The notes under the pieces: generated by a model | Database searches by the model: none | What the model saw: only the letters and a program-made list of their open reading frames with translations | What the model was told of the DNA's origin: nothing | Shown here: in pieces, positions 7,765 to 22,334 of the stretch | How the letters are laid out: the number at the start of each line of letters is the position of its first letter | Numbering within the stretch: the first letter of the stretch is position 1 | DNA from: Deltaproteobacteria bacterium | Lineage (GTDB): Bacteria; Desulfobacterota; Binatia; HRBIN30; JACQVA1 | Direction of reading: 5' to 3' | DNA length: 64,000 nucleotides | NCBI GenBank assembly: GCA_016178705.1 | Contig: JACOST010000015.1 | Coordinates: 124,001-188,000, forward strand | Position numbers and translations under genes: made by a program

Positions 7765-10326
7765 TTGCGCACTGCTCAGCTGCGGCCCAGCCTAATCTAC
7801 GGCCTCATCTTGTTCGCGCTCGGTGTCGTGTTCGCCACGCATGCGCGCGCCCAATTTCTTGCCGGCGACGTCAACGGAGATGGCCACGTCTCGCTGGATG
7901 ACCTGGCCGATCTCCCATCGGAGTTGTTCGATGGAGACGGTGATGATGTAGCGGATGTCGCGAGCGGAGAGTTTCCGGGCGCCGCCGGCGCCGATGCGAA
8001 TCAGGACGGGCTGATCACCGCCGCCGATTTTTCGCAGGTGGTCGTGTTGCAGCCCGGCTTGACGCCGGCCGTACCGACCGTGACGCCTACCCGTCCATCG
8101 CCAACTCTGACACGAACGCCGACCACCACGCCGACGCCGAACCTGACACCCGCCACGGCGACCGCGACCCCAACGGCTACCGCGTGCGTGCCGCAGAACA
8201 TCGGCGTCGGTACCGTCGGTGGTGCACTCGGTCCCGGCGATTGCACGAGCGGCTCAAGCGAGCACTTCATCGACGCGTACAGCGTCGCGGCGCACCCCGG
8301 GACTGCCTTGAAGATCGACGTCACTTCAACGAGTTTTTTACCGAGGATCTTGTTGCGCGACGCCGGGGGATACTTCGGATCGTATACTGGTCCACTTCCG
8401 GTCGAGTTATTGGTAACGACCAACCGGCCCTATGAATTCACGGTCACCAGCGGCACGGTGGGTCAGCCGACCGGAAGCTATACGCTGACTGTGAGCACCC
8501 GCATGTGCCAACCGACGCCGCGCAGCGTCACGCCCTCGAGTACCGGTACTCGCGTCAATGCAACCTTGCGCGAAACTGACTGTCCGGACCCTGCCGTGCC
8601 CTCGTCTCCTGCGCATCGGTTTACGTTTACGGCGTTGGCGGGGTCGGCGCTCTCGGTGCGGATGAGCACGGCGGCCATAGACCAAGACGTGCCCGACCCG
8701 GTCATCACGATCTATGGCCCGCCGCCGACCGCCGACAGCTTCACCGGGATCGAACTCGCCTCGGATGATGAGAGTGGCGGCCCGGTGGACAACGGCACCA
8801 CCGATGCGTTGCTGTCCTTCTACGCCGTTGAGAGCGGGACCTATACCGTCGTTGCCAGCGGCGGTGTTGGGAAGTACAGCGCCACATTCTCGCTCCCGTC
8901 TTGCACCCCGATTCCGGTTACGGTGTCGAATCAGTTGATGACGGTTACCGGCACACTGACGGCCGATTCTTGTCCGGCGCCATTTCCCTTGCCCAATGCT
9001 TCGAAGGGCGATCCCAACAGCCGCGCGGCCGTGTACACGATTGCGGCCGACGCCGGGGATGTGATCGCGGCCGAGATGCTGTCGGTCGATTTCGATGCCC
9101 AGTTGTACTTGCTGGGCCCCGACCACACGGTGGTGGCAAGTGACGACGATGGCTCGGAGAACGACATCACCGATGCGCAACTCGCGTTCACCGTCCCCCA
9201 GGCCGGCATCTACACGGTGGTCGCCGCCAGCAACGATGCGTCGATCACGCAAGAGGGATCGACCGGCAAATACAGTCTGGCCCTGCAGAAGTGTCCTGCC
9301 AGCCCGCTCTCGCTCGATACCGTAACCTCCGACAGTTTCAGTCGGACACTCGACTGTCGTGGCACCAAGGGGGTCTTCGTCAACAGCTATAAATTTACCA
9401 ACAACAATCCGTCACAGTTTGTCTTCGCGACAATGGTGGCGGACCCATCGTCCGATATCGACTCGGTGTTGGCGCTGACGACGCCGAGCGGACAGGTGTT
9501 GGTCAATGACAACGATCCGTTTGTGGCGGACTTCACGTCGGATGCGCGCATCGCTCGCGTGCTCCCGCTGGCGGGCACCTACTTTCTGACCGCCTCCTCA
9601 TTTCAAGATGGGGGTCCGGTCGAAGGCGGCTACGCCGTCTCCGTCGCGCGGTGCCGCACCATCGCGGCCGCGGCAGGCACGGTACACGGCGAGTTTCGCG
9701 ATGACGACTGTGAACTGGCCTCGCTTGGAGACGAGCCGGGTGTGAAGTTGAACGTCTTTACGATGGCGACAAACGCGAACCAGTCAATCTCCATTGTTCC
9801 GCCTGACGGAGCGTGTGGGTTGGTGGCCACTGCCGACGGCCTGCAGGGGCCAGGGCCAGCATGCTCACCTGACTTCTTGGCGATGCCGCTCGCCAGCGCC
9901 GGCACCACGGCGGTGATTGTCAGCGCGTCCGATCCGACCGTGCGCGGCCCGTACGAGTTCGAGCTGCGCACCTGCCCGGCCAGCGGGATAATCGGCTTCG
10001 CCTCCTCAACCGTCGGATTCATTAGCGGCGGCGACTGTCACGACGCCAGCGGCCTGCCGGGTGACTTCTATTTGTTCCGCGCGCCGTCATCCTTGATTGC
10101 CTTCAACGGCGACGTCACCGCACACGTGATGAGCTCGTTCAGTGACAGTTCGTTGGTGGTCGACAACACCGGCCTTTCCAGCGTGGCGAATGAGTTGGTG
10201 GAGAATCCCGAAGATCTATTGCCGATTGGCTCCGATCTCGTCTTTGGCCTCACGGTACGGCCGGCGCGCGCCGATACCACCGGCAGCTACGCCTTGCACG
10301 TCAATATCGCCCATTTGCACCAATAG
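7765..10326 (+). CDS. Secreted protein with N-terminal EF-hands, Thr/Pro linker and PPC-like repeats
   Basis: This is an 853-residue exported protein. A signal peptide (hydrophobic residues about 10-25, cut after THARA) is followed by two dockerin-like EF-hand loops, GDVNGDGHVSLDDL and ADANQDGLITAADF. A short Thr/Pro-rich linker (about residues 103-140) comes next, then about six repeats of a bacterial pre-peptidase C-terminal (PPC)-like beta-sandwich. These are separated by Cys-containing joints such as LPSCTP and QKCPAS. The start is TTG 7765, supported by AAAGG eight bases upstream and by the clean signal peptide. No enzymatic domain is visible, so an adhesive or structural extracellular role is inferred. 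Unlike its neighbours, the EF-hand pair is at the N terminus. Confidence 0.8.
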   Translation: MRTAQLRPSLIYGLILFALGVVFATHARAQFLAGDVNGDGHVSLDDLADLPSELFDGDGDDVADVASGEFPGAAGADANQDGLITAADFSQVVVLQPGLTPAVPTVTPTRPSPTLTRTPTTTPTPNLTPATATATPTATACVPQNIGVGTVGGALGPGDCTSGSSEHFIDAYSVAAHPGTALKIDVTSTSFLPRILLRDAGGYFGSYTGPLPVELLVTTNRPYEFTVTSGTVGQPTGSYTLTVSTRMCQPTPRSVTPSSTGTRVNATLRETDCPDPAVPSSPAHRFTFTALAGSALSVRMSTAAIDQDVPDPVITIYGPPPTADSFTGIELASDDESGGPVDNGTTDALLSFYAVESGTYTVVASGGVGKYSATFSLPSCTPIPVTVSNQLMTVTGTLTADSCPAPFPLPNASKGDPNSRAAVYTIAADAGDVIAAEMLSVDFDAQLYLLGPDHTVVASDDDGSENDITDAQLAFTVPQAGIYTVVAASNDASITQEGSTGKYSLALQKCPASPLSLDTVTSDSFSRTLDCRGTKGVFVNSYKFTNNNPSQFVFATMVADPSSDIDSVLALTTPSGQVLVNDNDPFVADFTSDARIARVLPLAGTYFLTASSFQDGGPVEGGYAVSVARCRTIAAAAGTVHGEFRDDDCELASLGDEPGVKLNVFTMATNANQSISIVPPDGACGLVATADGLQGPGPACSPDFLAMPLASAGTTAVIVSASDPTVRGPYEFELRTCPASGIIGFASSTVGFISGGDCHDASGLPGDFYLFRAPSSLIAFNGDVTAHVMSSFSDSSLVVDNTGLSSVANELVENPEDLLPIGSDLVFGLTVRPARADTTGSYALHVNIAHLHQ

Positions 10327-10361: not shown

Positions 10362-10390
10362 TTGACCCGTGCAAGCGGCGTGCTTTATAT
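10362..10390 (+). promoter_or_regulatory. Promoter-like element at the 5' end of the lipoprotein gene
   Basis: TTGACC (10362-10367), a 17-bp spacer and TTATAT (10385-10390, or TATATG one base later) resemble a sigma70 promoter. It overlaps the first possible GTG (10369), so if it is real the translation start must be later than the longest frame suggests. Confidence 0.3.
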
Positions 10391-13300
10391 GCCATGTGCG
10401 TTTTTCAGCGATCCGGACACAGAAGACGTGGCGTGGTCAGGTAGCGCTATGGCGGCAACGCTCTACTCTCCGTGCGGTAGGGCACTGCATCGGCGTGCTC
10501 GCACTCTCGACAGTGATCGGTTGCGGCGGCGGAGGGGGCGGCAGCGCTCCGAGTACGCGGGGTGGCCTCACTCTACGCGCCCTGTGGGAACGGCAGAATT
10601 CGGCTGTCGGTTCACAGCTCGCAACGTTTGACGGCGGGACCGAAATTCCTCTTTGTGTTCAGACCGTCGAGGTCCGGGTCGACGGCGACGGGTATACTCG
10701 CCGCAAGTTCGTCGATCCCAATGATCACGAAGCAACGATTGACAATCTGCCGGCCGGGTCGGTGAACGTATTCGTCTTCGGCTACGACGTGCCATTTGGC
10801 GAACCGCCGGATCTCGCGACGGTTGGCATCGCGCCTTGTTATGCAAGTGCGGCCGTGCCGGCTCAGATTACCGCAGGGCAGACCACCGACGTCGGGAATG
10901 TGAACGTCCTATCGCGCCCGTTCGTCACTTCCTTTGTGCCGTTGCCGGGCGAGACTGGGGTGTCGCGTTCGGCGCCAGTAACGTTCGTCGTAGCGACCGC
11001 GAGCGGAGGCATCAGCCGCGACAGTGTGACGATTGCTGTCAACGGTACGGTATTGGTGAATGACGGGCTGCCCTCGCACGGTGCGGACCTCACCGCGTGT
11101 GCCGACGGCAGCGCTTCGCCGTGTGTCGTTCCGAGCCAGAATCTGCATGGTTTCCGCTTCAGCACCTCGGTGAATACGTTCCCCGCCTTCACCACGATCC
11201 CCGTGTCGGTTAGCGCAAACGATACCAACACACCGCCGCGCGCCATCATCCCCGATCCCTATGAGTACCAGTTCACCACCGGCAACGAGATCACGACCGC
11301 GACGCCGACTAATTCACCGACCGGCACGGCGACCGCAACCCCGACCTTGTCGGTAACGCCTCTGCCGACCGCGACCGGTACCGACACTGCCACCGTGACG
11401 CCGACCGATACCGCGACGGCAACGGCGACGGTCGAATCGACTCCAACATCAACGTCAACCGACACCGCCACCGCGACAGCCACTGCGACCCAGACGGCCA
11501 CCGTGACGGCAACCGATACACCGACGCTCACGCCAACGACCACTGAGACGCCAACGTCTACGGAAACCGCGACGCTGACGGAGACGCCGACCAGTACCCC
11601 GAGCGACACGCCAACCACGAGCCCAACGGCAACGGAGACTTCCACCGAGACGCCGACCGGCACAGCGACGGAAACCGCCACCGATACTCAGACCGCGACG
11701 GCGACCGAGACGCCCACGCTAACCCCAACCGGGACGTTTACCGAGACGCCAACCGAAACCGAGACGCCGACCCCAACCGAAACGCCGACGATTACCGCAA
11801 CTCCGACGGCGACGGATACGGAGACGCCGACCGCAACCGCGACACCAACGCCGCTGACCTACATCGTCACGAATCTGGATGACAGCGGCGATGGCTCACT
11901 GCGCGCGGCGATCACCTTGGCCAACACCGATGAATTGCCGAGCCGGATTCTGTTCGCTCAAGATCTCATGGACGGCGAAATCGCACTCGATACGCCGCTG
12001 CCGCAACTCATCGCGGATGCCACTTCGATCGACGGCGCCTTCGGCACGCCGGCGCCGCATATCGCGGTCCTCGGATCGATCGACGCACCGGTCATGACTA
12101 TCGTCGGGCACGGCATTCGACTACGCGGCTTGGCGTTGACCGGTGCGACCAGCGGTGTTCGGCTGGCCAGTGGATCATCTGACGCCCTCATCGCTGGCAA
12201 CTACATCGGTGTCGAACTCGATGGGTCCACTCCCGCACCCAACAGCGATGCCGGAATCGACCTCGACGGATCGGGTCACACCCTTCAGGGCAATACGATT
12301 GCCGCGAACTTGGGTGACGGCATCATCATTCATGACACTGCCAGCGCTGCGACCGTGGTCTCGAATACCATTGGTGCGACGGCTGATCGTAGCGCGGCAG
12401 TCGGCAATGTGGGTGCGGGTGTTCGCGTGTCCGGTCAGATGGCCGTGATCAAAGACAATCTCGTCGTGGGCAACGGCTCGAGCGGCATCGCGCTTGGCGG
12501 AATGGCCGTCCACGACGTGACGATCACCAACAACGACATCGGAGATGAGATCCTCAGCGGCAACGATGGCGACGGCATCACCGTTGAAGCGGCCACGCAC
12601 GTCACGATCGGCGGTGCTGATAGCGGTAACCGCATCCGCGACAACTTCGGCGCCGGCGTGAACATCCTCGGAGCCGGTGCCACCGCCGTGCAGCTCACTC
12701 GTAACTCGATCGTCGCCAACGGTGGTCTGGGCATCGCACGCAGTGGCGGCGCCGAGACCTTGGTGAGCGCTCCGATGCTCTTTGTGACCGGCAATACGAT
12801 CGCGGGCACCGGCTTGGTGAGTGCGGCGGTCGAGTTCTTTGCCACCGGTGTGCCTCCCGATCCGACCGGCGCAGGCGAAGGAGAGTTCTTCCTCGGCAGT
12901 ACCACGGCGGATGACCAAGGCGCCTTCTCGTTCAACTTCGCTCCGGCCGAGGTCACGACCGTGACCGCGACACAAACCGACGCGGCGAACAATACGAGCG
13001 TGTTTGCTGTCAACGTCCAAGTCGCGCCGCCGCCGACTAGCACACCGACGGAGACGCCGACAGAAACCCCGACGGACACGGAAACGCCCACGGCAACCGA
13101 GACCTCGACCGAGACGCCAACCCCGAGCGTGACCGAAACGCCACTGCCGACTGCGACCGATACCGCGACCGCGACTGTCACAGAGACCGCGACCGAGACG
13201 CCGACCGAGACGCCAACGCCAACCGCGACCGAAACCCCGACGGTAACGGAGACTCCCACGGTAACGGAGACTCCCACGGTAACGCAGACGCCCACGCTGA

Positions 13301-15045
13301 CTGAGACCTCCACCGAGACGCCGACGGTTACTGAAACGCCGACCGATACGCCGACGCCGACCGATACGCCGACGGCAACTGACACGCCCGAGGTGAGTCC
13401 CACCGAGACGACGACGGCGACGGTTACCGAGACCGCCACCGTCACGGAGACACCAACCGAGACGGCGACTCCGACGGAGACAGCGACGCCGACAGTGACG
13501 GACACGCCGACGGAGACGCCGACCGCGACGCCAACCGCGACCCCGACGGAAACGCCGACTCAGACCGACACACCGACCGATACGCCGACGCCGACTGCGA
13601 CCGCGACCGACACTGATACGCCAACCGCGACGCCAACCAGCACCGACACGCCGACGGCGACGCCGACGGCGACCGATACGCCTACCGACACTCCGACCAA
13701 CACCGCGACCGCAACGGCCACCGCAACCGACACCGCCACCGCCACCAGTACCGCGACCACGACGGCAACCCGGACCGCGACATCGACGGACACCCCGACC
13801 AACACACCAACGCCGACCGCGACCCCAACGCCATCGGCGGCGGCCTATATCGTGACCAACACCAACGACAGCGGGGCGGGATCACTGCGCACCGCAATGA
13901 CGCTCGCCAACACCGACGGCGTCGCCAGCGCGATCACGTTTGATCCAAGTCTGACGGGTCAGACGATTGTGCTGGCCACCGCACTGCCCGCTTTGAGCGA
14001 AGCCCAGACCACGATCAACGGCGACATCAACGGCGATCTGCAGCCCGATATCCGCGTCGCCGGTACGATGGCCTTCACCGGATTTGTTGTCCAAGCCGAT
14101 CTCGTTGAGCTCCGTGGCTTGGCGATCACCTCGATGTCCGTCGGGATCCAACTGACCTCCACCGCGCACACTGCGGTGATCGCGAACGACTACGTCGGCC
14201 TAGCACTCGATGGGGTGACGGCAGCAGGTAACAACGGGACGGGCATCGTGGTCGGCGGCTCCGGCCATTTGATCGATCACAATGTGATCAGCGCCAACGC
14301 CGTCCACGGCGTTCTCGAAGTCAGCACGGCGAGCAGCGTCACGATCACCGGCAACACGATCGGCGCCACGGCCGATCGCTCCGCGGCACGTGGCAATACC
14401 GGAACCGGTATCTTCCTGCTCGGACGCGCGACCATTGGCGGCACCGCTGCGGGCGCCGGTAACTTCATCATTGCCAACGGCGGTAGCGGCGTCTTCCTGC
14501 AAGCGATCAGCGGCTCGGTCCACGACATCTCGATCCTCGGCAACCAGATCGGCGACCCCGCCGTGGGCGGCAACGGGATCGATGGCATCACCATCGATCT
14601 GGCCACCAATGTGACCATTGGCGGGCTGGCGAGCGGTGCGCCCAATACTATCGCAAACAACGCGGGGATTGGCGTCGCCATCGTCAAACCCAGCACCGGC
14701 ATCGCGGTGCGCGCCGATAGCATAGCCAACAACACCGGCGCAGGCATTCGTCGCAGCGGTGGTGCTGAAACGATCATCGCGAAGCCCGTGCTGAGTAAGA
14801 GCGGAACGCTGCTGACGGGTACTATGGCTGTGGCGAACGCCGCCGTTGATGTATTCCGCACCGACACGCCACCTGACAGCAGCGGCGCCGGTGAAGGGAA
14901 AACGTACCTCGGTACCACCACGGCCAACGGAGCCGGGACCTTCTCGTTCTCGTTGGCGGGCCAAGCGGCCGGGGTGTTCACCGCAACGCAAACGGATGCC
15001 AGCAACAACACCAGTGAGTTCGCGGTGAACATCACGGTGCCATGA
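10369..15045 (+). CDS. Very large lipoprotein with two beta-helix modules and two Thr/Pro tracts
   Basis: The longest frame has 1558 residues. A hydrophobic segment ending in the lipobox VIGC (Cys about residue 51) predicts a lipid-anchored protein. An Ig-like region follows (about 180-305). Then come Thr/Pro/Glu/Asp tract 1 (about 310-494), right-handed beta-helix module 1 starting [15 protein letters not shown] (about 495-885), tract 2 (about 889-1158) and module 2 starting [15 protein letters not shown] (about 1159-1558). The modules are clear duplicates, sharing [12 protein letters not shown]. The start is uncertain: GTG 10369 or GTG 10396, and no ATG precedes the signal segment. It is followed by a Slam-like gene 58 bp downstream, which suggests surface display. 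A structural or adhesive role is inferred. Confidence 0.82.
11296..11850 (+). repeat. Thr/Pro-rich coding tract 1 (acidic)
   Basis: About 185 codons of irregular period-2 and period-4 repeats (TPT, TET, TDT, TAT) sit inside the large lipoprotein. Glu and Asp are frequent and Arg/Lys are absent, so the linker is strongly negative. It joins the N-terminal region to beta-helix module 1. Confidence 0.9.
13033..13842 (+). repeat. Thr/Pro-rich coding tract 2 (acidic) with recent 18-bp tandem duplication
   Basis: About 270 codons of TETPT/TDTPT-type repeat separate the two beta-helix modules. The 18-mer at 13243-13260 is repeated exactly at 13261-13278 and again with two changes at 13279-13296, evidence of recent slippage. 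Charged residues are almost all Glu/Asp until one Arg near the end. Confidence 0.9.
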
Positions 15046-15103
15046 GCGCGGCGACTTTTATGCGCACAAGCAATCGCATGACCGGCACGGGGGCAGAGCG
15101 AAG

Positions 15104-16684
15104 ATGACATGCAGGCGGAGGTACTGGGCGGTGACGCTCCTGGTGATCGGGATGTCGCTGCCTCTCGTCGCGCCGGTGTCGGCCAACCAGCGCTCGCAGG
15201 CGCTGTACGCGAAAGGGCTGGTGCCGTTCCACAACGGCAAGTGGGACGACGCCTACCAGTTGTTCGACGAGGCTGTGAAGGCCGATCCGAGCGATGCGCT
15301 GGCGCTGTACTATCGCGGGCTGACGGCGGCGCGCCGCGGTCAACCCACCGTGGCGATCCCCGATATGGAGCAAGCCGCGAAACTGCGTCCGCGCTTGGCT
15401 CATCTCGCGCTCGATCTCGGCATCACTTACTTCGACGCCGGCCAATTCGCCCAGGCCAAGACCTGGCTCGATCAGGCCTACGCAACCGCCGACGATCGCC
15501 TGCGCGCGGCGTTTTTCCTCGGCATGACGTGTTATCGTTTGCGCGAGTTCGACAAGGCCAGCGCGTATTTTGCCGAAGCCGAAAAGGATCCCGAGCTGCG
15601 CGCTAATGCGCACTACTATGCCGGGCTGGTCGCCCTGCAACAGGGGCAAACGGCTGAAGGCCGCAAGCAGATGGAACAGGCCGCGCAAGGCCGCGCCGAG
15701 AGCGAGACCGCCAAGTCCGCGCAGCAATTCCTGTCCGGCGGCAGCGTGCGCCAACCGCCCGCTCCGGGCCAACCGGCAGCGCGACCGTGGTCGGTCTACG
15801 GCGATATGCGCCTGGAGTACGACAGCAACGTCAACCTCGGCCCCAACAATTCCCCGGTGTCGGGCTCCAACACGGGCAAGTCGGATGGCGATGTGGCGCT
15901 CGGTTTTGGCGGCGCGTACAACCTCCTCGACATCGATGTGGCTCGCATCACCGCATCGTACGACTTCTATCAGAGCCTCTTTTTCACCGACAGTGATTTC
16001 AACCTCGAAGCCCACCAATTGCGCCTGCAGGGAACGGTCCCGGCGGGTCCGGTGCAGCTTGGGTTGGCGGGGGCGTATGGGTACTACCTACTCGGCGGCG
16101 ATACGTTTTATCAGGAAGGGGTGGTGACACCGTGGGTGACCATCCCCGAAGGCGAGAGCTTGAGCACGCAGATCTACTATGCCTTCCGCGCTCGCAATTT
16201 CATCCTCAACACCTACAATCCATCTCGCGATGCCACTAATGATGCCGTCGGCATCCGCCAATACGCTCTGCTCGGCGCCGAGGACCGCATCCTCAGCGTC
16301 GGCTACCAGTTCGACAAAGAACTCGTCGAGGCGGCCTTCCTCGCAGATGATGTCACCGGCGTCCGTCACCGGAATTCGTTTCAATACAATGGCAACCAAT
16401 TCGATGTCAGTGTGGAATTGCCGCTGGCCGATGTCGCAACGGCGCGGTTTGCCTACCTACTGCGGTTGGAAGACTACCAGTTCCCCGACCAGTTCGCGGT
16501 GCCCGCCTACGCCTTTCGCCGGCATGATGTTGAGAATCAGATCTTCGCGTCGGTCTTCCGCGACATGACGGACTATCTCCAGCTCGGTTTGACCTACATC
16601 GGCACGTTCAATCAATCGAACATCAGCGACCCGTACCAATACAATCGGAACGTCGTCTCGGTCGGCGCGCGGCTCCACTACTAA
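15104..16684 (+). CDS. TPR plus outer-membrane beta-barrel protein, Slam-like
   Basis: This is a 526-residue protein. Residues 1-28 form a signal peptide ending PVSA, and residues about 30-212 are TPR helices (e.g. LALYYRGLTAARRGQ, NAHYYAGLVALQQGQ). After a Pro-rich hinge, residues about 229-526 are amphipathic beta-strands ending in the C-terminal aromatic RLHY expected for a BAM-inserted barrel. The barrel opens with LEYDSNVN, a motif I associate with DUF560/Slam proteins, which move lipoproteins to the cell surface. TPR-then-barrel order and length also match Slam. It directly follows the giant lipoprotein gene (58 bp) and precedes the FecR gene (18 bp). A generic TPR porin is the main alternative. 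Confidence 0.72.
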   Translation: MTCRRRYWAVTLLVIGMSLPLVAPVSANQRSQALYAKGLVPFHNGKWDDAYQLFDEAVKADPSDALALYYRGLTAARRGQPTVAIPDMEQAAKLRPRLAHLALDLGITYFDAGQFAQAKTWLDQAYATADDRLRAAFFLGMTCYRLREFDKASAYFAEAEKDPELRANAHYYAGLVALQQGQTAEGRKQMEQAAQGRAESETAKSAQQFLSGGSVRQPPAPGQPAARPWSVYGDMRLEYDSNVNLGPNNSPVSGSNTGKSDGDVALGFGGAYNLLDIDVARITASYDFYQSLFFTDSDFNLEAHQLRLQGTVPAGPVQLGLAGAYGYYLLGGDTFYQEGVVTPWVTIPEGESLSTQIYYAFRARNFILNTYNPSRDATNDAVGIRQYALLGAEDRILSVGYQFDKELVEAAFLADDVTGVRHRNSFQYNGNQFDVSVELPLADVATARFAYLLRLEDYQFPDQFAVPAYAFRRHDVENQIFASVFRDMTDYLQLGLTYIGTFNQSNISDPYQYNRNVVSVGARLHY

Positions 16685-16702
16685 CAGCGGGGTGTATGAG
16701 CG

Positions 16703-17629
16703 ATGACGCGGACGTACAGAATTTCGATCGGTCTGCTGCTGAGTGTCGCAGTGCTCGCGGTGCAGGTACGCACGGCCGCAGCGCAAAGCGCCGGAGGGCA
16801 CGAAGTGGCGACGGTTGCTGCCGTGGTCGGCGGTGCCGAGTTGCAGCGCGCAGGTGGCGGAGACTGGCAGCTCATGGTGGTGGGGAGCGGCTTGTTTACC
16901 GGCGACCATGTCCGCACCCGCGCCACCAGCCGAGCCAAGCTGGTGTTCCAAGACGATTCAGTTGTCGATGTCGGCCCCGCCACCGAGATGGTGATCGACA
17001 AAGAAGACTTCAATCAAAGCGCGCGCCAGTATCGGTCAGCGCTCAAACTCGTGACCGGCAAGATCCGGGCGTTGGTGAGCGAGTATTACACCACACCGAA
17101 CTCCCGCTACGAAATCGAGACGCCCACCGCAGTCGCCGGCGTGCGCGGCACTGAGTTCATCGTTGTGTACGATGCGAACGCGGATTACACCGACGTCGTC
17201 GTGATCGAGAACGAAGTCGTGGTCGAGGGCACCCTGGGTGTGGTTGGCGGCACTGTTCGCGTCGGCCCGCAAATGGCGAGCCGCATACAGAAGGGGCGCT
17301 TCCCTTCCGCTCCACGAAAGATCGATGCCGCGTTGCTGCAACAGTACCTCGAAGGACTCGACATCGTTGGTACCGGCGGTCACGACAGTCTCGGCAGCGC
17401 CCACGCCGCAGTGAAGGGGCAATTGCTGTCGCCAACCGACAGCGCAGCCCAAGTTGGGAAGGTCGCCCGCACTGCCACTCGAACCGCGGGCCTGGTTGTC
17501 AACGCTCCCGATCAATCACCCGGCGCCGGCTACTCGAAGGACATCGGCACCAACACCCAACCACTCAACGCGTTCCAGGTCACCCCGCCGGGCAGCGTCC
17601 CAAAGGGTGGCGTCCACGTCGGGTTCTAG
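16703..17629 (+). CDS. Periplasmic FecR-domain protein
   Basis: This is a 308-residue protein with a signal peptide (cut near AAA-QSAGG) and no later membrane helix, so it is probably periplasmic or secreted. The FecR domain spans about residues 33-180, with the characteristic GDHVRTRATSRAKLVFQD and TPTAVAGVRGTEFIV blocks. The last 100 residues are low in recognisable structure. Classical FecR proteins are anti-sigma regulators anchored in the inner membrane, but no sigma factor is nearby. Soluble FecR domains of this type often sit beside TPR and surface proteins, so it may assist the preceding Slam-like barrel. It converges on the exporter adaptor with a 17-bp gap. Confidence 0.85.
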   Translation: MTRTYRISIGLLLSVAVLAVQVRTAAAQSAGGHEVATVAAVVGGAELQRAGGGDWQLMVVGSGLFTGDHVRTRATSRAKLVFQDDSVVDVGPATEMVIDKEDFNQSARQYRSALKLVTGKIRALVSEYYTTPNSRYEIETPTAVAGVRGTEFIVVYDANADYTDVVVIENEVVVEGTLGVVGGTVRVGPQMASRIQKGRFPSAPRKIDAALLQQYLEGLDIVGTGGHDSLGSAHAAVKGQLLSPTDSAAQVGKVARTATRTAGLVVNAPDQSPGAGYSKDIGTNTQPLNAFQVTPPGSVPKGGVHVGF

Positions 17630-17646: not shown

Positions 17647-18876
17647 TCAGCCGGCCAAGCGCACACGACCGCCGTCGCGCACAGCGGCATCGTCTGACAC
17701 CACGATTGCTTCACCACCCTTGAGGCCGCTGGTGACGCGGGTGCGATCGCCGACTTCGCCGGCGGTTTCGATCGGCGTGCGATGCGCGCGTTCGTCACTC
17801 ACCACCCACACGAACAGACTTCCCTGCGAATCGCGTCGCACGGCCGCCGCGGGCACCAGCACAGCCGGCTTCTCCACCTCCTGCGCTGTCGCCTCGGCGA
17901 GAAAGGTGATGCGCGCGCTCATGTCGGGCAGCAGGCGCGCGTCGGGCTGCAGGATGTGGACCTCGATGCGCAGCGTGCCCTTCTGCCGATCGACTTGTGG
18001 GTAGAGTTTCACCACCTGTGCCGCGTAGTGCGCGTCGGAAAATGCGTCCGGCGTCACTTGCGCGGCTTGGCCCATATGGACGCGATTGAGGTCGGCCTCG
18101 TTGACGTCGACTTGGGCGCGCATGTCGGTGAGGTTGGCCAAGCGGATCAAGTCGCCGGAACCCGCGAACCCGCCGGGCACGGCGATCTCGCCCACTTCCT
18201 TCAACTTCGCCAACACCACGCCGTCGGTCGGGGCGTGCAGTGTGGTGTACTCGAGGTTGACCTTTGCCTGCGCCAGCTCGGCTTCGATTTGCGCGATGGT
18301 GGCACGCGCCACCGCTGCCTTGTTCTCGAAGACATCGAGTTCTTGTTTCGAGATCACCGCTTGCTGATGGAGGGCGCGGCCGCGCGCCAAATCGGCGTCG
18401 GCCAAGTTGAGGTTCGCGCGCGCGACCGCAAGACCGGCTTCGGTGCGCGTCATTGCGGCACGATAGTCGCGGTCATCAATTTGGACGAGCGGATCGCCTT
18501 TGCGGACGTTCTGCCCCTCTTCGACGAAGTAGTGGTCGATGCGGCCGGGGACGCGGACGCCGATCGATACGTAGCGATCGCCGGTGACGATGTAACCGGA
18601 ACCCGACAGCACCGGGGCCGGCCCGGCTTGGCCCGGAGCCGACATCGTGGCATAGGCGACGGTGACCGTCGGCGCGCGCCCGAGCACGGACCAGGTGCCA
18701 AGCGCGGCGACAGCAAGCAACCCAACGGTCACCGCGATCCAAATGGGACGGCGACGCGTGCCGCTCGGTTTGCGCGGCGCCGGCGGCGCGCCACGATCGA
18801 GTCGCAGCGATTCCAAGTCAGCGCGCAGTCGTTCGTGTCGTTCCGGATTGGGGTTCGCCATCGCCTCAGCACTCAC
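17647..18876 (-). CDS. ABC exporter periplasmic adaptor (HlyD/MacA family)
   Basis: This is a 409-residue membrane-fusion protein. One N-terminal membrane helix (about 47-69) is followed by the lipoyl half-motif GRIDHYFVEEGQNVRKGDPL and a coiled-coil hairpin (about 135-205). The second lipoyl half, VNLEYTTLHAPTDGVVL, and then beta-barrel and membrane-proximal domains complete the fold. It bridges an inner-membrane transporter to an outer-membrane exit. It is last in a minus-strand operon of ATPase, two permeases and adaptor. The start may be ATG 18861 instead of GTG 18876. No TolC-like gene is present in the window. Confidence 0.9.
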   Translation of the reverse strand: MSAEAMANPNPERHERLRADLESLRLDRGAPPAPRKPSGTRRRPIWIAVTVGLLAVAALGTWSVLGRAPTVTVAYATMSAPGQAGPAPVLSGSGYIVTGDRYVSIGVRVPGRIDHYFVEEGQNVRKGDPLVQIDDRDYRAAMTRTEAGLAVARANLNLADADLARGRALHQQAVISKQELDVFENKAAVARATIAQIEAELAQAKVNLEYTTLHAPTDGVVLAKLKEVGEIAVPGGFAGSGDLIRLANLTDMRAQVDVNEADLNRVHMGQAAQVTPDAFSDAHYAAQVVKLYPQVDRQKGTLRIEVHILQPDARLLPDMSARITFLAEATAQEVEKPAVLVPAAAVRRDSQGSLFVWVVSDERAHRTPIETAGEVGDRTRVTSGLKGGEAIVVSDDAAVRDGGRVRLAG

Positions 18877-18903
18877 AAGTCATGCGGAGAAAGTCAACGA
18901 ACA

Positions 18904-18978
18904 GTAGGCAGAGGGCAGCAGGCAGCAGGCAGCAAGACAACCAGAGACCATGAACTAGAGACCACAAACCACGAACCA
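18904..18978. repeat. Low-complexity intergenic repeat between adaptor and permease
   Basis: This spacer holds a GGCAGCA-type tandem repeat (18904-18934), then a degenerate direct repeat built on GAGACCA/ACCACAAACC/ACGAACC (18940-18978). It codes for nothing I can recognise and has no promoter features. Confidence 0.7.
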
Positions 18979-18980
18979 AC

Positions 18981-20156
18981 TCACGCTTTGCGCAGCGCTT
19001 CGATCGGTCGCATGCGCGCGGCGCGCCACGCCGGACCGAAGCCGCCGGCGAGGCCGATCACGACCGCGAGCACCAGTGAGGCGACCAGGTCGTGGCCGGT
19101 GACGCGCAGACTGACGACGTTGGTGGTGAACGTCGCCGCGTTGAACGACACGCCGCCGAGCAGGACCCCGAGGAGGGCCGAGAGCGCGAGTGCGAGCACC
19201 GCGCCGAGCGCGAATCCGATCGCCGCCAGCAGGATCGCCTCCACTTGAAACGCGGAAAGAATCGCCAGCCGCGAAAAACCCAGCGCGCGCAGCGTGCCGA
19301 TCTCGGCGGTGCGCGCTTGCACCGATGCGTACATCGAGTTCGCAGCGCCGAATCCGGCGCCGATGCCGGCGAGCACGGCGATGCCGATCACCAAAACGTA
19401 GAGCGAGTTCGCCGACTCCGACTGCTTGGCGTAGTACTCTGTCTCGCGCTGCGCGTGGAGCGCAAAACGCGGATCATCATCGACCCGGCGCATCAAGGGT
19501 TCCAGCTCGGCTGCCGAGGCCGCCCGCATGCGCAGACCGGAATACGGCGATGGTCGCTTGGCATCGTTGGCCAATTCGCGCACGTCGACCCACACCTCGC
19601 TCTCGAATGACGAGCCGCCGGCATCGAGAATCCCGACGACCTTCCAAGTGCCGTGGCCGAACTGGAGATCGCTGCCGAGCGTCGTGCCGATGTAGCGGCC
19701 AGCCACACCGCGTCCAACTACGACCTCGTGCGCGCTGGGCGTGAACATGCGCCCCTCGGCGATCCGAACACTGCTGTGAACCGCCAAAGCGACCGGCTCG
19801 ACGCCACGCACGAGCACGTTCTCCCGACCGCCGGCGGGGGTGTGGAAGAACGGCTGTACCACCAACTCCGGCGAGGCTAGCGGCTGATCAGCGCTGTCGC
19901 GCGCGATCCCGTCGAAGAAGCGGATGGCTTGATACGCCTCGAGCGGCAACCAACTCGCGCCGTCGTTGTCCGACCCTTTGCGCATCACGATCAGATTCAG
20001 CGGATCGCCGCTCGATGTCACCGTCCGCTTCAGACTGGAGATCAGCCCGAGAAACAGACTGCACGCGATCACGACGAGCGCGATCACACTCGCCGACATC
20101 ACACTGCGCATCGGCCGCGCGGCGACGTTCTTGAAGCTATACGATATCGGGAGCAT
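18981..20156 (-). CDS. ABC transporter permease, FtsX/MacB type (second)
   Basis: This is a 391-residue permease. Residues about 17-42 form the first membrane helix, then a large periplasmic MacB-PCD domain (about 45-250), then three helices, with the FtsX core at about 255-391. The EIGTLRALGFSR coupling motif is present and the protein ends IEALRKA, typical of the family. It is the second of two different permeases in the operon, 114 bp downstream of the first. MacB-type transporters drive substrates through the periplasm by mechanotransmission rather than across the inner membrane. Confidence 0.92.
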   Translation of the reverse strand: MLPISYSFKNVAARPMRSVMSASVIALVVIACSLFLGLISSLKRTVTSSGDPLNLIVMRKGSDNDGASWLPLEAYQAIRFFDGIARDSADQPLASPELVVQPFFHTPAGGRENVLVRGVEPVALAVHSSVRIAEGRMFTPSAHEVVVGRGVAGRYIGTTLGSDLQFGHGTWKVVGILDAGGSSFESEVWVDVRELANDAKRPSPYSGLRMRAASAAELEPLMRRVDDDPRFALHAQRETEYYAKQSESANSLYVLVIGIAVLAGIGAGFGAANSMYASVQARTAEIGTLRALGFSRLAILSAFQVEAILLAAIGFALGAVLALALSALLGVLLGGVSFNAATFTTNVVSLRVTGHDLVASLVLAVVIGLAGGFGPAWRAARMRPIEALRKA

Positions 20157-20270
20157 GGAACGAAGCGAGCCTTCGGCTCGCGCTGATGGCTGATCGCATA
20201 TCGCTGATGGTTCGGATTGTCATCCGGATGTCTCGGCTATCTGCCATACGCCATATGCTATCCGCCGCAG
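20157..20270. repeat. Intergenic spacer with hairpin and degenerate palindromic repeats
   Basis: A 7-bp stem GCGAGCC/GGCTCGC with a TTC loop lies at 20165-20181. It is followed by near-palindromic pieces such as GCTGATGGCTGATCGC, ATCGCTGATGG and GCCATACGCCATATGC. No T-run follows the hairpin. It sits inside the exporter operon, so it may modulate expression of the downstream permease or simply be a vagrant repeat. Confidence 0.65.
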
Positions 20271-21437
20271 TCAGAACACCTCGTGCAGCGTCTGCACCAC
20301 CGGTTTGCGGGCGGCGCCGAATGACGGGACGAGGCCGGCCAACATGCCGACGAAGAGCGACAGGAAGATCCCCTGCACCACCACCGGCGCGGTGACGATG
20401 AAACTGCCGAGCGGCCCGAGCGCCGGATTCCATCCGGTCGAGGCTTTGAGCGCATGCGTCAATCCGATCGTGAGCAGCACGCCGAGGCTCCCCGCCACTG
20501 TGGACAGCGCGACGGCTTCGGCGAATAGCGTTCCGAAGATGACGCGCCGGCCGAAGCCGATTGCTTTGAGCACCGCGAGTTCGCCGGAGCGCTCGCGCAC
20601 CCCCATCGATGCGGTGTTGGCGGCGATGAACACGATGCACAAGGCCACCAGTCCGGTGACGATCAGGATGATGGTGAGGAAGCCCTTGAGCGATCCGAAG
20701 AAGTTCGCGAAGTAGCTCTTCTCGGTCTCGCACGCGGTCTCCGCTTCGCTGTTGTGCGACATGTCGTCGATCTGGCGCATGATGGCGTTGACGCGGTTGG
20801 GATCGCTGGCACGCACCCAGATCACGTTGGCGATTCCGAGACCGGGCATCCCCTTCGCTTTGAGCGCTTCGTCGAGATAGGTCCAATTCAACCACAACAG
20901 CGGTGAGGTTTCGCGCGGCATCTCACCGACGATGCGCAGGTCGAGATTGGCCGGCCAGACCGTGCTCCGCAGCGTGATGCGGTCGCCGATCTTCCAGCCG
21001 TACTTCTGCATCGTCTGACGCCCGACGATCGCGCCGTCGCGGTAGCGTTGGAAGTCGGCGAGTTGCTCGGCCGGGATGTTGTAGTCCGGGTAGACGGCGC
21101 CGACATGCTCGGCTTCGACGGCGAAATTCGGAAAGGTCACCCGTCCTTCTTCTTCGAAGGCGCCGCCGAACCACATCGTCGCGGTGGCCGCCGCGACGCC
21201 GTCCACTTCACGCACCTTGCGCGTGAATGAGAACGGCATCGAGTACACCACGCCACCCTTGTTGTGCACGGAAATGCGAGTGTTGCTGGCGACGCTGTTG
21301 AGGATCGCGTCGAGTCCGGCCGGCATCGTGAGCAACAAGCACACAAGCACCACTGCGAGCATGATCGCCCCGCCGGTGAGCGCGGTGCGCAGCTTGTTGC
21401 GCCCGAGATTGGCGCGAATGAGGCCGAAGTATTTCAT
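20271..21437 (-). CDS. ABC transporter permease, FtsX/MacB type (first)
   Basis: This 388-residue permease of the DevC/MacB superfamily has a helix at about 20-42, a periplasmic domain (about 45-255), then three helices with the FtsX core GVRERSGELAVLKAIGFGRR. It ends KPVVQTLHEVF. It differs clearly from the next permease, so the complex may be a heterodimer like LolC-LolE. It follows the ATPase by 51 bp; that gap holds a short repeat. Confidence 0.92.
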   Translation of the reverse strand: MKYFGLIRANLGRNKLRTALTGGAIMLAVVLVCLLLTMPAGLDAILNSVASNTRISVHNKGGVVYSMPFSFTRKVREVDGVAAATATMWFGGAFEEEGRVTFPNFAVEAEHVGAVYPDYNIPAEQLADFQRYRDGAIVGRQTMQKYGWKIGDRITLRSTVWPANLDLRIVGEMPRETSPLLWLNWTYLDEALKAKGMPGLGIANVIWVRASDPNRVNAIMRQIDDMSHNSEAETACETEKSYFANFFGSLKGFLTIILIVTGLVALCIVFIAANTASMGVRERSGELAVLKAIGFGRRVIFGTLFAEAVALSTVAGSLGVLLTIGLTHALKASTGWNPALGPLGSFIVTAPVVVQGIFLSLFVGMLAGLVPSFGAARKPVVQTLHEVF

Positions 21438-21475
21438 GGTCGTGACTCGTGTTCGTGATTCGTGACTCGGGTACC
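21438..21475. repeat. CGTGACTCGTG-type intergenic repeat (copy 1)
   Basis: Units close to CGTGACTCGT / CGTGATTCGTGACTCG fill the gap between ATPase and permease. A clearly related repeat occurs at 57836-57882, 36 kb away. Confidence 0.7.
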
Positions 21476-21488
21476 GTTTGCCGGCTAT

Positions 21489-22217
21489 CTATTGTCGCGC
21501 GGCGCCGCCGGCGGCGATGCGAATCGCTTCCGCCGCGCGGTCCGCGTCTTCACCTTCGAGCAATACGCCCTTGTCGAGGTGCAACGCATCGTCGACGAAG
21601 CGCAACGCGCGGGAGTCGTGAGTGACCATGACGATGGTCTTGCCGAAATCGTTCTTGAGTTGCCGCAGCAGCGCCAGAATGTCCTCGGCGTTGCGGGCAT
21701 CGAGATCGCCGGTCGGTTCATCCGCGACGATCAGATCGGGGTCGGTGACGATGGCGCGCGCAATCGCCACGCGTTGTTGTTCGCCGCCCGAGAGCGTGCG
21801 CGGCGAGTGATCCATCCGATGATCGAGGCCGACCACACGCAGCGCCGTCTCCGCTCGCCGCGCGCGCTCGGCCTTCTTCAGCGGAGTCAACAACAGCGGC
21901 AGCGCCACATTGTCGCGCGCCGACAGCACTGGGATCAGGTTGAAGAACTGAAAGATCAGGCCGACGTGGCGGGCGCGCCAGTGGGCGAGTTCGTCTTCGC
22001 TGAGGTCGTTCAGTCGCTGCCCGACGACGAGCACGTCACCTGAGTTCGGCCGGTCGATGCCGGAGATGAGATTGAGCAGGGTCGATTTGCCCGAGCCCGA
22101 CGGCCCCATGAACGCCACGAAGTGCCCCGCTTCGATGTGCACGCTCACGTTGTCGAGCGCGTGCACCTCATCCGCGTTGCGGTGGTAGGAACGGGAGACG
22201 TTTCTGACGTCGATCAT
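21489..22217 (-). CDS. ABC transporter ATP-binding protein (MacB/LolD type)
   Basis: This is a 242-residue ATPase starting [12 protein letters not shown]. Walker A is GPSGSGKST, the Q-loop lies in [16 protein letters not shown], the signature is [14 protein letters not shown], and Walker B is [12 protein letters not shown]. It energises the two permeases downstream. The longer frame reaching 22322 was rejected because the added 35 residues are not family-like and occupy the promoter region shared with the divergent gene. Confidence 0.95.
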
Positions 22218-22304
22218 CGCGTTTGAGTCGACTCTATCGGGAAGCCCTGTGAGCGGCAAGATCAGCGCTTGACGCGAACGACTCGACAGCGGGCTGAAGT
22301 TGGG

Positions 22305-22334
22305 TTGACTTCCGTCGCCCAAGCGGACGACAAT
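22305..22334 (+). promoter_or_regulatory. Possible promoter of the EF-hand-tagged PPC protein
   Basis: TTGACT (22305-22310), an 18-bp spacer and GACAAT (22329-22334) precede the ATG at 22392 by 57 bp, in the spacer shared with the divergent exporter operon. Confidence 0.35.

Follow-up and report, generated by a model that had tools for sequence, protein, structure and literature searches.

A divergent Slam-like cassette links a giant lipoprotein to a barrel protein and a constant FecR-domain partner in a deltaproteobacterium

Introduction

Slam of the Neisseria type 11 secretion system (T11SS), a member of the SlipAM family (PF04575, DUF560), carries an N-terminal tetratricopeptide repeat (TPR) domain and a C-terminal barrel, which in Slam1 has 14 strands (PMC5449769). 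The cargos predicted to depend on Slam carry an eight-stranded barrel without exception, and relatives of Slam are reported in all proteobacterial clades (PMC5449769); T11SS have been described across Proteobacteria (PMC8406197; PMC12282271). In a reconstituted Neisseria system, unfolded TbpB crosses Slam1 aided by Skp (PMC9090332), and a 2025 survey found TbpB-type barrels to be rare near cluster 3 T11SS, raising other targeting domains as a possibility (PMC12282271). How cargo is recognised by T11SS outside the pathogen-rich cluster 1 is the question addressed by the loci described here, found through a 64,000-nucleotide stretch of a Deltaproteobacteria bacterium (GTDB phylum Desulfobacterota, class Binatia, order HRBIN30; GenBank assembly GCA_016178705.1, contig JACOST010000015.1, positions 124,001 to 188,000), hereafter the window.

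Three consecutive genes in the window encode a giant lipoprotein, a TPR-barrel protein and a FecR-domain protein (Table 1). Together they probably constitute an export cassette of divergent type 11 (Slam-like) character, which displays the giant lipoprotein at the cell surface by means of an N-terminal targeting domain; that the cassette is real, conserved and Slam-like is the firmer part of this reading. As in Slam, an N-terminal TPR domain precedes a predicted 14-strand barrel of homologous sequence, a lipobox gene lies next door, and genomes encode several paralogues with a separate cargo for each. Unlike Slam, the window protein is too divergent for PF04575 and has a constant FecR partner, and the scanned cargos have a common N-terminal domain (N-domain) in place of a C-terminal eight-stranded barrel, with giant beta-helix or propeller passengers carried on threonine/proline-rich (T/P-rich) linkers. 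The cluster 3 T11SS of marine Rhodobacteraceae resemble our loci in that their neighbours rarely have a TbpB-type barrel and another targeting domain is suspected, but the neighbours there are DUF1194 proteins, as against FecR proteins and N-domain lipoproteins here (PMC12282271).

The first-pass annotation of the window had presented this cassette as a new variant outside Gammaproteobacteria and Betaproteobacteria. Given the reported spread of Slam relatives, its taxonomic position is not new in itself; what is new is the domain at the N-terminus of the cargo and the constancy of FecR as a partner. The word FecR is absent from the main texts of PMC8406197, PMC12282271 and PMC9090332, and a search by title and start of abstract, with most subscription journals outside its reach and thus no proof of absence, showed, among the papers listed, no publication that pairs FecR with Slam or T11SS; two in which FecR occurs together with a Slam or T11SS term deal with a siderophore and with resistant Acinetobacter.

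Results and discussion

The barrel protein is a divergent SlipAM homologue

By sequence comparison, the window barrel is homologous to Slam and SlipAM barrels over its full length. In a pairwise hhalign comparison, the barrel halves of 40 family members aligned with those of 14 PF04575-positive proteins of the phylum at probability 100 (E 1.5e-49, 280 of 288 columns), with controls at 17.6% for the reversed profile and no more than 0.5% for 20 column shuffles. The 14 proteins are those of alignment A3 after removal of the TPR-less L114, L122 and L123; A3 in turn holds 17 of the 23 loci L106–L128, omitting L113 and L127 (members of the window's own family) as well as L116, L118, L121 and L126. 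The family profile was also compared with three plasmid-borne Slams that adjoin genes annotated as TbpB-like or Slam-dependent lipoproteins, both scanned cargos of which carry TbpB_B_D (Pfam). The full proteins gave 96.9% (E 1.3e-10) and the barrels alone 96.6% (E 6e-10, 279 columns), with the reversed profile at 0.5% and 20 shuffles at or below 0.6%.

At the level of single profiles, three relatives of the window protein pass the PF04575 cut-off of 22 bits: L017 (30.0 bits), L086 (32.3 bits) and L116 (29.0 bits). L086 and L116 are distant members: L086 is 22% identical to the window barrel protein and L116 scores 435 bits against the family profile. The window's own genome encodes four full-length paralogues (31–37% identity), and the paralogue L017 (C28:697530) is the only PF04575 match of that genome at E ≤ 0.001. 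TPR_Slam is matched at E ≤ 0.1 by 30 of the 40 family members. The membership in DUF560/SlipAM that the first-pass annotation had anticipated thus appears in relatives and in profile–profile comparison over the whole barrel, though not in the window protein itself. BBP2_2 (PF10082), a barrel family that has its C-terminus in common with SlipAM, was considered as an alternative, with 19 of the 40 members matching at E ≤ 0.1; the genome matches fall at its C-terminus only, covering the last 67–94 of 378 profile positions. A plasmid search with the window barrel protein gave no match over more than 80% of the query, and ten records matched its TPR part. Searching PDB sequences with the entire alignment brought up mostly TPR proteins.

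When the window proteins were scanned directly with Pfam and NCBIfam, TPR-type families, FecR and Beta_helix were matched, and AlphaFold2 supplied the barrel of the 526-amino-acid protein, in agreement with the first-pass description of a TPR protein whose C-terminal barrel opens with LEYDSNVN. The model, built on a 14-sequence alignment (mean predicted local distance difference test, pLDDT, 83.6), predicts a TPR superhelix and exactly 14 strands, from residues 229–240 to residues 513–525, the number expected from the outset. According to VIA-align, the nearest solved folds are CymA (Z 21.7, root-mean-square deviation (r.m.s.d.) 3.6 over 282) and OmpG (Z 19.9, r.m.s.d. 3.7 over 262), along with MamA and other TPR proteins. 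CymA and OmpG are 14-strand monomeric barrels. No Slam structure was among the PDB matches listed, which says nothing on absence.

Barrel, FecR and cargo genes recur and are inherited together

All 15 genomes analysed from the order contain the barrel family. When 198 genomes were drawn evenly from the phylum and the best 7 candidates per genome scored, at least 10 genomes, the window's own among them, had a barrel match at E ≤ 1e-20. We collected 33 loci in the order, which exclude the weak or truncated matches G003:C721, G003:C329 and G013:C333; the last of these (L135) is a small TPR lipoprotein. In 33 of 33 loci the barrel gene is followed, in the same orientation, by a FecR gene, some of whose open reading frame (ORF) starts overlap the barrel gene. 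Because it recurs in every locus of 15 genomes, the barrel–FecR pair is more than chance. A FecR profile run over 506 kb around the 33 loci found 34 ORFs in all, one gene being split.

An N-domain cargo adjoins the barrel and FecR genes in 23 of the 33 loci, lying upstream in 20 and downstream of FecR in three (L076–L078), and four further loci (L019, L055, L065 and L080) are cut by contig ends. The triad that the first-pass annotation hoped to see in related genomes is therefore a recurrent one. Across the 23 loci with an N-domain at E <1e-50 (L066 dropped), barrel and N-domain distances correlated at r 0.765. When cargo labels were swapped among paralogues of the same genome, which preserves the species tree, the observed r was reached in 5 of 5000 trials (swap mean 0.321), the unswapped arrangement itself amounting to 1/3840. 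FecR distances correlated at r 0.684 with the barrel and 0.811 with the N-domain over 22 loci (L067, whose FecR is split into two ORFs, dropped), values reached in 2 and 1 of 5000 swaps. This co-variation shows that the triads are inherited as units.

In aggregate, the Slam-like reading of the first-pass annotation, which was to be given up if the barrel fell in a porin or other family or if lipobox genes did not recur beside it, is supported by homology to SlipAM barrels, by the 14 predicted strands and by the recurring triad. We nevertheless describe the window protein as a divergent SlipAM-family homologue and do not file it as Slam proper, because it fails the Pfam test and its cargo is without the defining barrel.

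Cargos have a constant N-domain and variable passengers

After the lipobox cysteine, the cargos carry a domain of about 240 amino acids that is their constant part and that the first-pass annotation missed. Its best Pfam match was no better than 0.016 among 17 members. These 17 form alignment A4, drawn from 21 cargos with L066, L070, L074 and L075 omitted. An AlphaFold2 model of the domain is all-beta, with a pLDDT of only 64.7 that is too weak for naming a fold, and its Foldseek matches were generic Ig/FnIII domains.

The N-domain is tied closely to the barrel gene. A search of the 15 genomes of the order gave 25 matches in 14 genomes, 23 of them adjoining a barrel gene and the remaining two on contigs whose ends fall within the cargo gene. 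In G001:C206, the cargo leaves the contig within T/P repeats, the upstream genes resemble those 5' of the window cassette, and contig C258 holds the matching remainder of the cargo plus barrel and FecR; in G003:C1012, the cargo frame reaches the contig end in T/P repeats with its neighbour out of view. Wherever the neighbourhood of a match was visible, it included a barrel gene. Among the matches listed for the 198 drawn genomes (best 13 candidates per genome scored), the N-domain was found only in G000, G002 and G032, with one weak partial match in G196. Outside the order but within its class, G032 is, among the matches listed, also the sole genome in which a barrel match reaches E ≤ 1e-20; G105, G134, G162 and G187 have neither barrel nor N-domain among the matches listed.

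The lipobox that the first-pass annotation read on the 1.5-kilo-residue window protein is present as V-I-G-C at residues 49–52, preceded by a long basic n-region; two GTG codons, at 10369 and 10396, are possible starts. Among the 21 aligned upstream cargos (20 from the order, plus L081 of the same class outside it; L017 is absent from this alignment), 20 have a cysteine in the lipobox column, as do the three cargos located downstream of FecR (L076–L078). The anchor-proximal part is conserved across the 21 aligned cargos and the remainder is not.

The passengers behind the linkers vary from locus to locus. The window cargo carries two right-handed beta-helix modules that are 46% identical to one another, and the L074 cargo also has a beta-helix passenger. 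Those of L056, L062, L016 and L068 are beta-propellers, and that of L015 combines a carboxypeptidase-regulatory-like domain with TSP3. No family was recognised in the passengers of L018, L072, L079 and L081, and the cargos of L054, L071 and L073 stop shortly after the N-domain with no passenger. A beta-helix, which the first-pass annotation had named with FecR as the mark of this variant, is thus one of several passengers, whereas FecR is indeed constant. The cargo genes of two relatives (L133 and L134) break at contig ends within T/P repeats.

The FecR protein is a short, constant partner

The soluble FecR-domain protein called in the first-pass annotation has a Sec-type N-terminus by eye and a Pfam FecR match at residues 68–172. 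FecR proteins of the order are small, at ~270–320 amino acids after allowing for over-long ORF starts, and carry no passenger. A C-terminal tail of the form G-x-hydrophobic-x-hydrophobic was present at 26 of 28 non-orphan loci and 0 of 5 orphan loci (those with barrel and FecR only; see below). This motif was chosen post hoc, the orphans are close relatives that may represent one event, and a looser motif also matched orphans. Across the phylum, a FecR gene adjoins the barrel gene (flank up to about 1.5 kb) in 12 of the 23 PF04575-matched loci, two of these 12 (L113 and L127) belonging to the window's own family. The neighbours expected of a FecIR-type sigma regulator, a FecI sigma factor and a TonB receptor, were not noticed on reading the gene lists, with no profile search aimed at either.

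Four Bdellovibrio-type contigs (L099, L100, L102 and L103) place FecR upstream of a larger TPR-barrel-like protein of 684–738 amino acids, so that the pair stands in reversed order in that lineage.

A proposed route for cargo display

By analogy, the cassette very probably works like Slam. The lipidation, delivery and threading steps that we propose are modelled on the reconstituted Neisseria system (PMC9090332). The cargo would be made with a lipoprotein signal, lipidated and carried by the Lol route to the outer membrane; the genome encodes LolA and a Skp-like OmpH protein. There, the barrel protein may recognise the anchor-proximal N-domain through its periplasmic TPR domain; we infer the N-domain to be what is recognised because nothing else in the cargo is constant. 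The unfolded chain would then be threaded through the 14-strand barrel and end up lipid-anchored outside, where the T/P-rich linker could hold the beta-helix passenger at a distance from the cell. FecR may act as a dedicated periplasmic partner, either a cargo-handling adaptor or a gate, and may also be exported itself.

A more specific proposal, which we hold tentatively and at somewhat less than even chances, is that the N-domain is a second, independent type 11 targeting signal, a double beta domain close to the membrane that stands in for the C-terminal eight-stranded barrel of known Slam cargo, and that FecR is a dedicated third component, an adaptor or gate docking via its C-terminal beta tail, giving a three-part system able to show almost any passenger behind a T/P stalk. 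The loci amount to a natural experiment on this point: 23 barrel genes each lie beside a cargo with one common N-domain, the passengers examined are unrelated, and FecR lies beside all 33 barrels. They single out a targeting domain that lends itself to testing as well as a candidate third component, and tie FecR-domain proteins to a proposed export route. If it works, such an N-terminal module would also be of use in surface display, since the passengers it presents are giant.

Evidence against export and alternative readings

Several observations weigh against a Slam-like export function. The window protein gave no PF04575 match in the Pfam scan. The hhalign values are single pairwise comparisons rather than results of a database search; a narrower 16-sequence alignment reached only 75% against the three Slam barrels, and comparisons with single Slams gave 94.9, 18.4 and 1.9%, the two low values counting against homology. 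A C-terminal TbpB-type barrel (PF01298 or FHBP_C) was found in 0 of 11 scanned cargos (the window's and ten others), although L018, L072, L079 and L081, the four that matched no family, may have a diverged barrel below detection. The L016 cargo has no lipobox cysteine, that of L017 has a poor lipobox (L-Q-G-C), and that of L074 has the lipobox and no N-domain. Five orthologous orphan loci of one family (L057–L061) consist of barrel and FecR with no N-domain cargo in the fetched stretch, which for L059 is a 5.4-kb contig only. Neighbouring genes can be co-inherited without physical interaction, so contact is not proven by co-variation. Finally, genes for CHASE2 sensors near many of the loci point to signalling. 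By eye, orphans L057, L058, L060 and L061 have a common context, with a DNA-ligase-like gene on one side and a response-regulator gene on the other, and a thioredoxin gene next in three of them.

The CHASE2 genes raise the possibility of outside-in signalling by a unit of barrel, FecR and CHASE2 cyclases, with the lipoprotein binding a ligand in the periplasm or at the surface and the barrel not acting as a translocon. Within the stretches fetched, 5 of the 33 order loci have CHASE2-cyclase-like genes, as do 6 of the 11 extended SlipAM loci from the phylum. Pfam confirmed CHASE2 in the four of the five order loci that were scanned (L075, L076, L079 and L080; the gene at the fifth, L071, is split over several ORFs) and in all six of the extended ones (five cyclases and, at L144, one kinase), and it also placed CHASE2 near L086 and L150. 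A precedent exists in the Burkholderia BiofilmReg operon, which has a role in biofilm formation and comprises a response regulator, a LysM-FecR protein, a CHASE2 kinase and a DUF4136 protein (PMC5192318). It resembles our loci in having a signal-peptide FecR-domain protein within an operon and, for some of them, a CHASE2 neighbour, but, unlike that of the window cassette, its gene list includes no TPR-barrel protein. On the other side, 28 of the 33 order loci, the window's among them (its first 30 kb searched), showed no CHASE2 gene in their fetched stretches, some of which are short contigs. Next to FecR in conservation comes a lipoprotein whose passengers vary, as suits a cargo better than a sensor, and the barrel homology to Slam runs over the full length. 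A signalling link is likely in part of the family, and export and sensory functions could coexist, but we consider it unlikely that signalling takes the place of export.

A second alternative, in our view quite unlikely, is that the FecR protein is the real cargo and the lipoprotein a periplasmic or separately exported partner. In its favour, several SlipAM-adjacent FecR proteins of relatives are large (571–1505 amino acids). The protein at L136, FecR at its N-terminus, ends in a TbpB_B_D domain scoring 35.5 bits over a cut-off of 26 and neighbours the best PF04575 match of the phylum sample (64 bits), and TbpB_B_D scores fall below the cut-off at L139 (24.7 bits) and at L150, on a Paracoccus plasmid (22.1 bits). 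At L136 and L139, of the same phylum, and at L150, a SlipAM-like barrel gene and a FecR-domain gene stand in tandem as in the window, but FecR and TbpB-type barrel are fused there in one large protein, as opposed to a short FecR and a separate lipoprotein in the window's order. The L136 fusion therefore indicates that FecR can elsewhere be joined to a cargo barrel of T11SS type, while in the order the short FecR is a constant partner. Pfam found no TbpB_B_D in the FecR proteins of L085, L138 and L140, and at L137 FecR was recognised by the family profile only, Pfam giving nothing. The orphan loci, which retain barrel and FecR alone, also favour FecR as cargo. In the order, however, it is the lipoprotein that bears long variable passengers and linkers, FecR being small and without a passenger, and the lipoprotein N-domain is tied to a barrel gene in every checkable case. 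At L136, L139 and L150, a CHASE2 gene adjoins each FecR/TbpB-type barrel gene.

A polysaccharide-export porin with a TPR scaffold, like BcsC, PgaA or AlgE, would account for BcsC (9b8a), itself a TPR-barrel protein, being the top PDB match in Foldseek (E 7e-12), but we set this match aside and regard such a porin as very improbable, given 14 predicted strands against the 16 of the BcsC barrel and the 16 given for PgaA, the better Z of the monomeric barrels CymA and OmpG in the best structural alignments, and cassettes in which reading of the gene lists, with no profile search made, showed no polysaccharide synthase and no glycan operon.

Coordinates and neighbouring genes

The ORFs of the three genes lie where the first-pass annotation had placed them, in the same order and with the same spacing, 58 bp between cargo and barrel and 18 bp between barrel and FecR (Table 1).

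Table 1. Features of the cassette in window coordinates.
Feature	Position	Strand	Basis or remark
Cargo gene, giant lipoprotein (1558 aa)	10369..15045	+	ORF; Pfam Beta_helix 1.6e-17; architecture analysis
Signal peptide and lipobox V-I-G-C (residues 49-52)	10369..10524	+	Cys52 at 10522-10524, then Gly run
Conserved N-terminal cargo domain, residues 66-304	10564..11280	+	Alignment A4; proposed targeting domain
T/P-rich linker 1	11287..11877	+	Architecture analysis
Beta-helix module 1 (passenger), from residue 497	11857..13002	+	Pfam and architecture analysis
T/P-rich linker 2, residues 879-1165	13003..13863	+	Architecture analysis
Beta-helix module 2 (passenger), from residue 1160	13846..15042	+	Architecture analysis
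TPR-barrel protein (526 aa), divergent Slam/T11SS outer-membrane protein homologue	15104..16684	+	
Periplasmic TPR domain, residues 23-210	15170..15733	+	Pfam, AlphaFold2
14-stranded barrel domain, residues 229-525	15788..16678	+	AlphaFold2; opens with LEYDSNVN
FecR-domain protein (308 aa), constant partner, Sec-type N-terminus	16703..17629	+	PF04773 2.9e-15
C-terminal G-x-hydrophobic-x-hydrophobic tail (GGVHVGF) of FecR protein	17606..17626	+	

The gene 5' of the cargo (7765-10326, + strand) encodes an 853-amino-acid protein with a Sec-type N-terminus, an EF-hand/dockerin-like repeat, a T/P linker and PPC domains, the last also seen in the direct scans. We kept this protein out of the cassette because no lipobox was flagged in it and it gave no N-domain match. 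A similar gene was seen by eye upstream of the orthologous G001 locus (L133). Two long antisense ORFs within the cargo gene (11259-11681 and 12435-13505, both on the - strand), consist of V-G-V-S-V repeats that mirror the T/P repeats in another frame; they are not genes, although automatic annotation may call them. On the other side, at 17647-22322 (- strand), translations read by eye suggest a convergent MacAB-type exporter-like set made up of an HlyD-like protein, two FtsX-like permeases and an ATPase.

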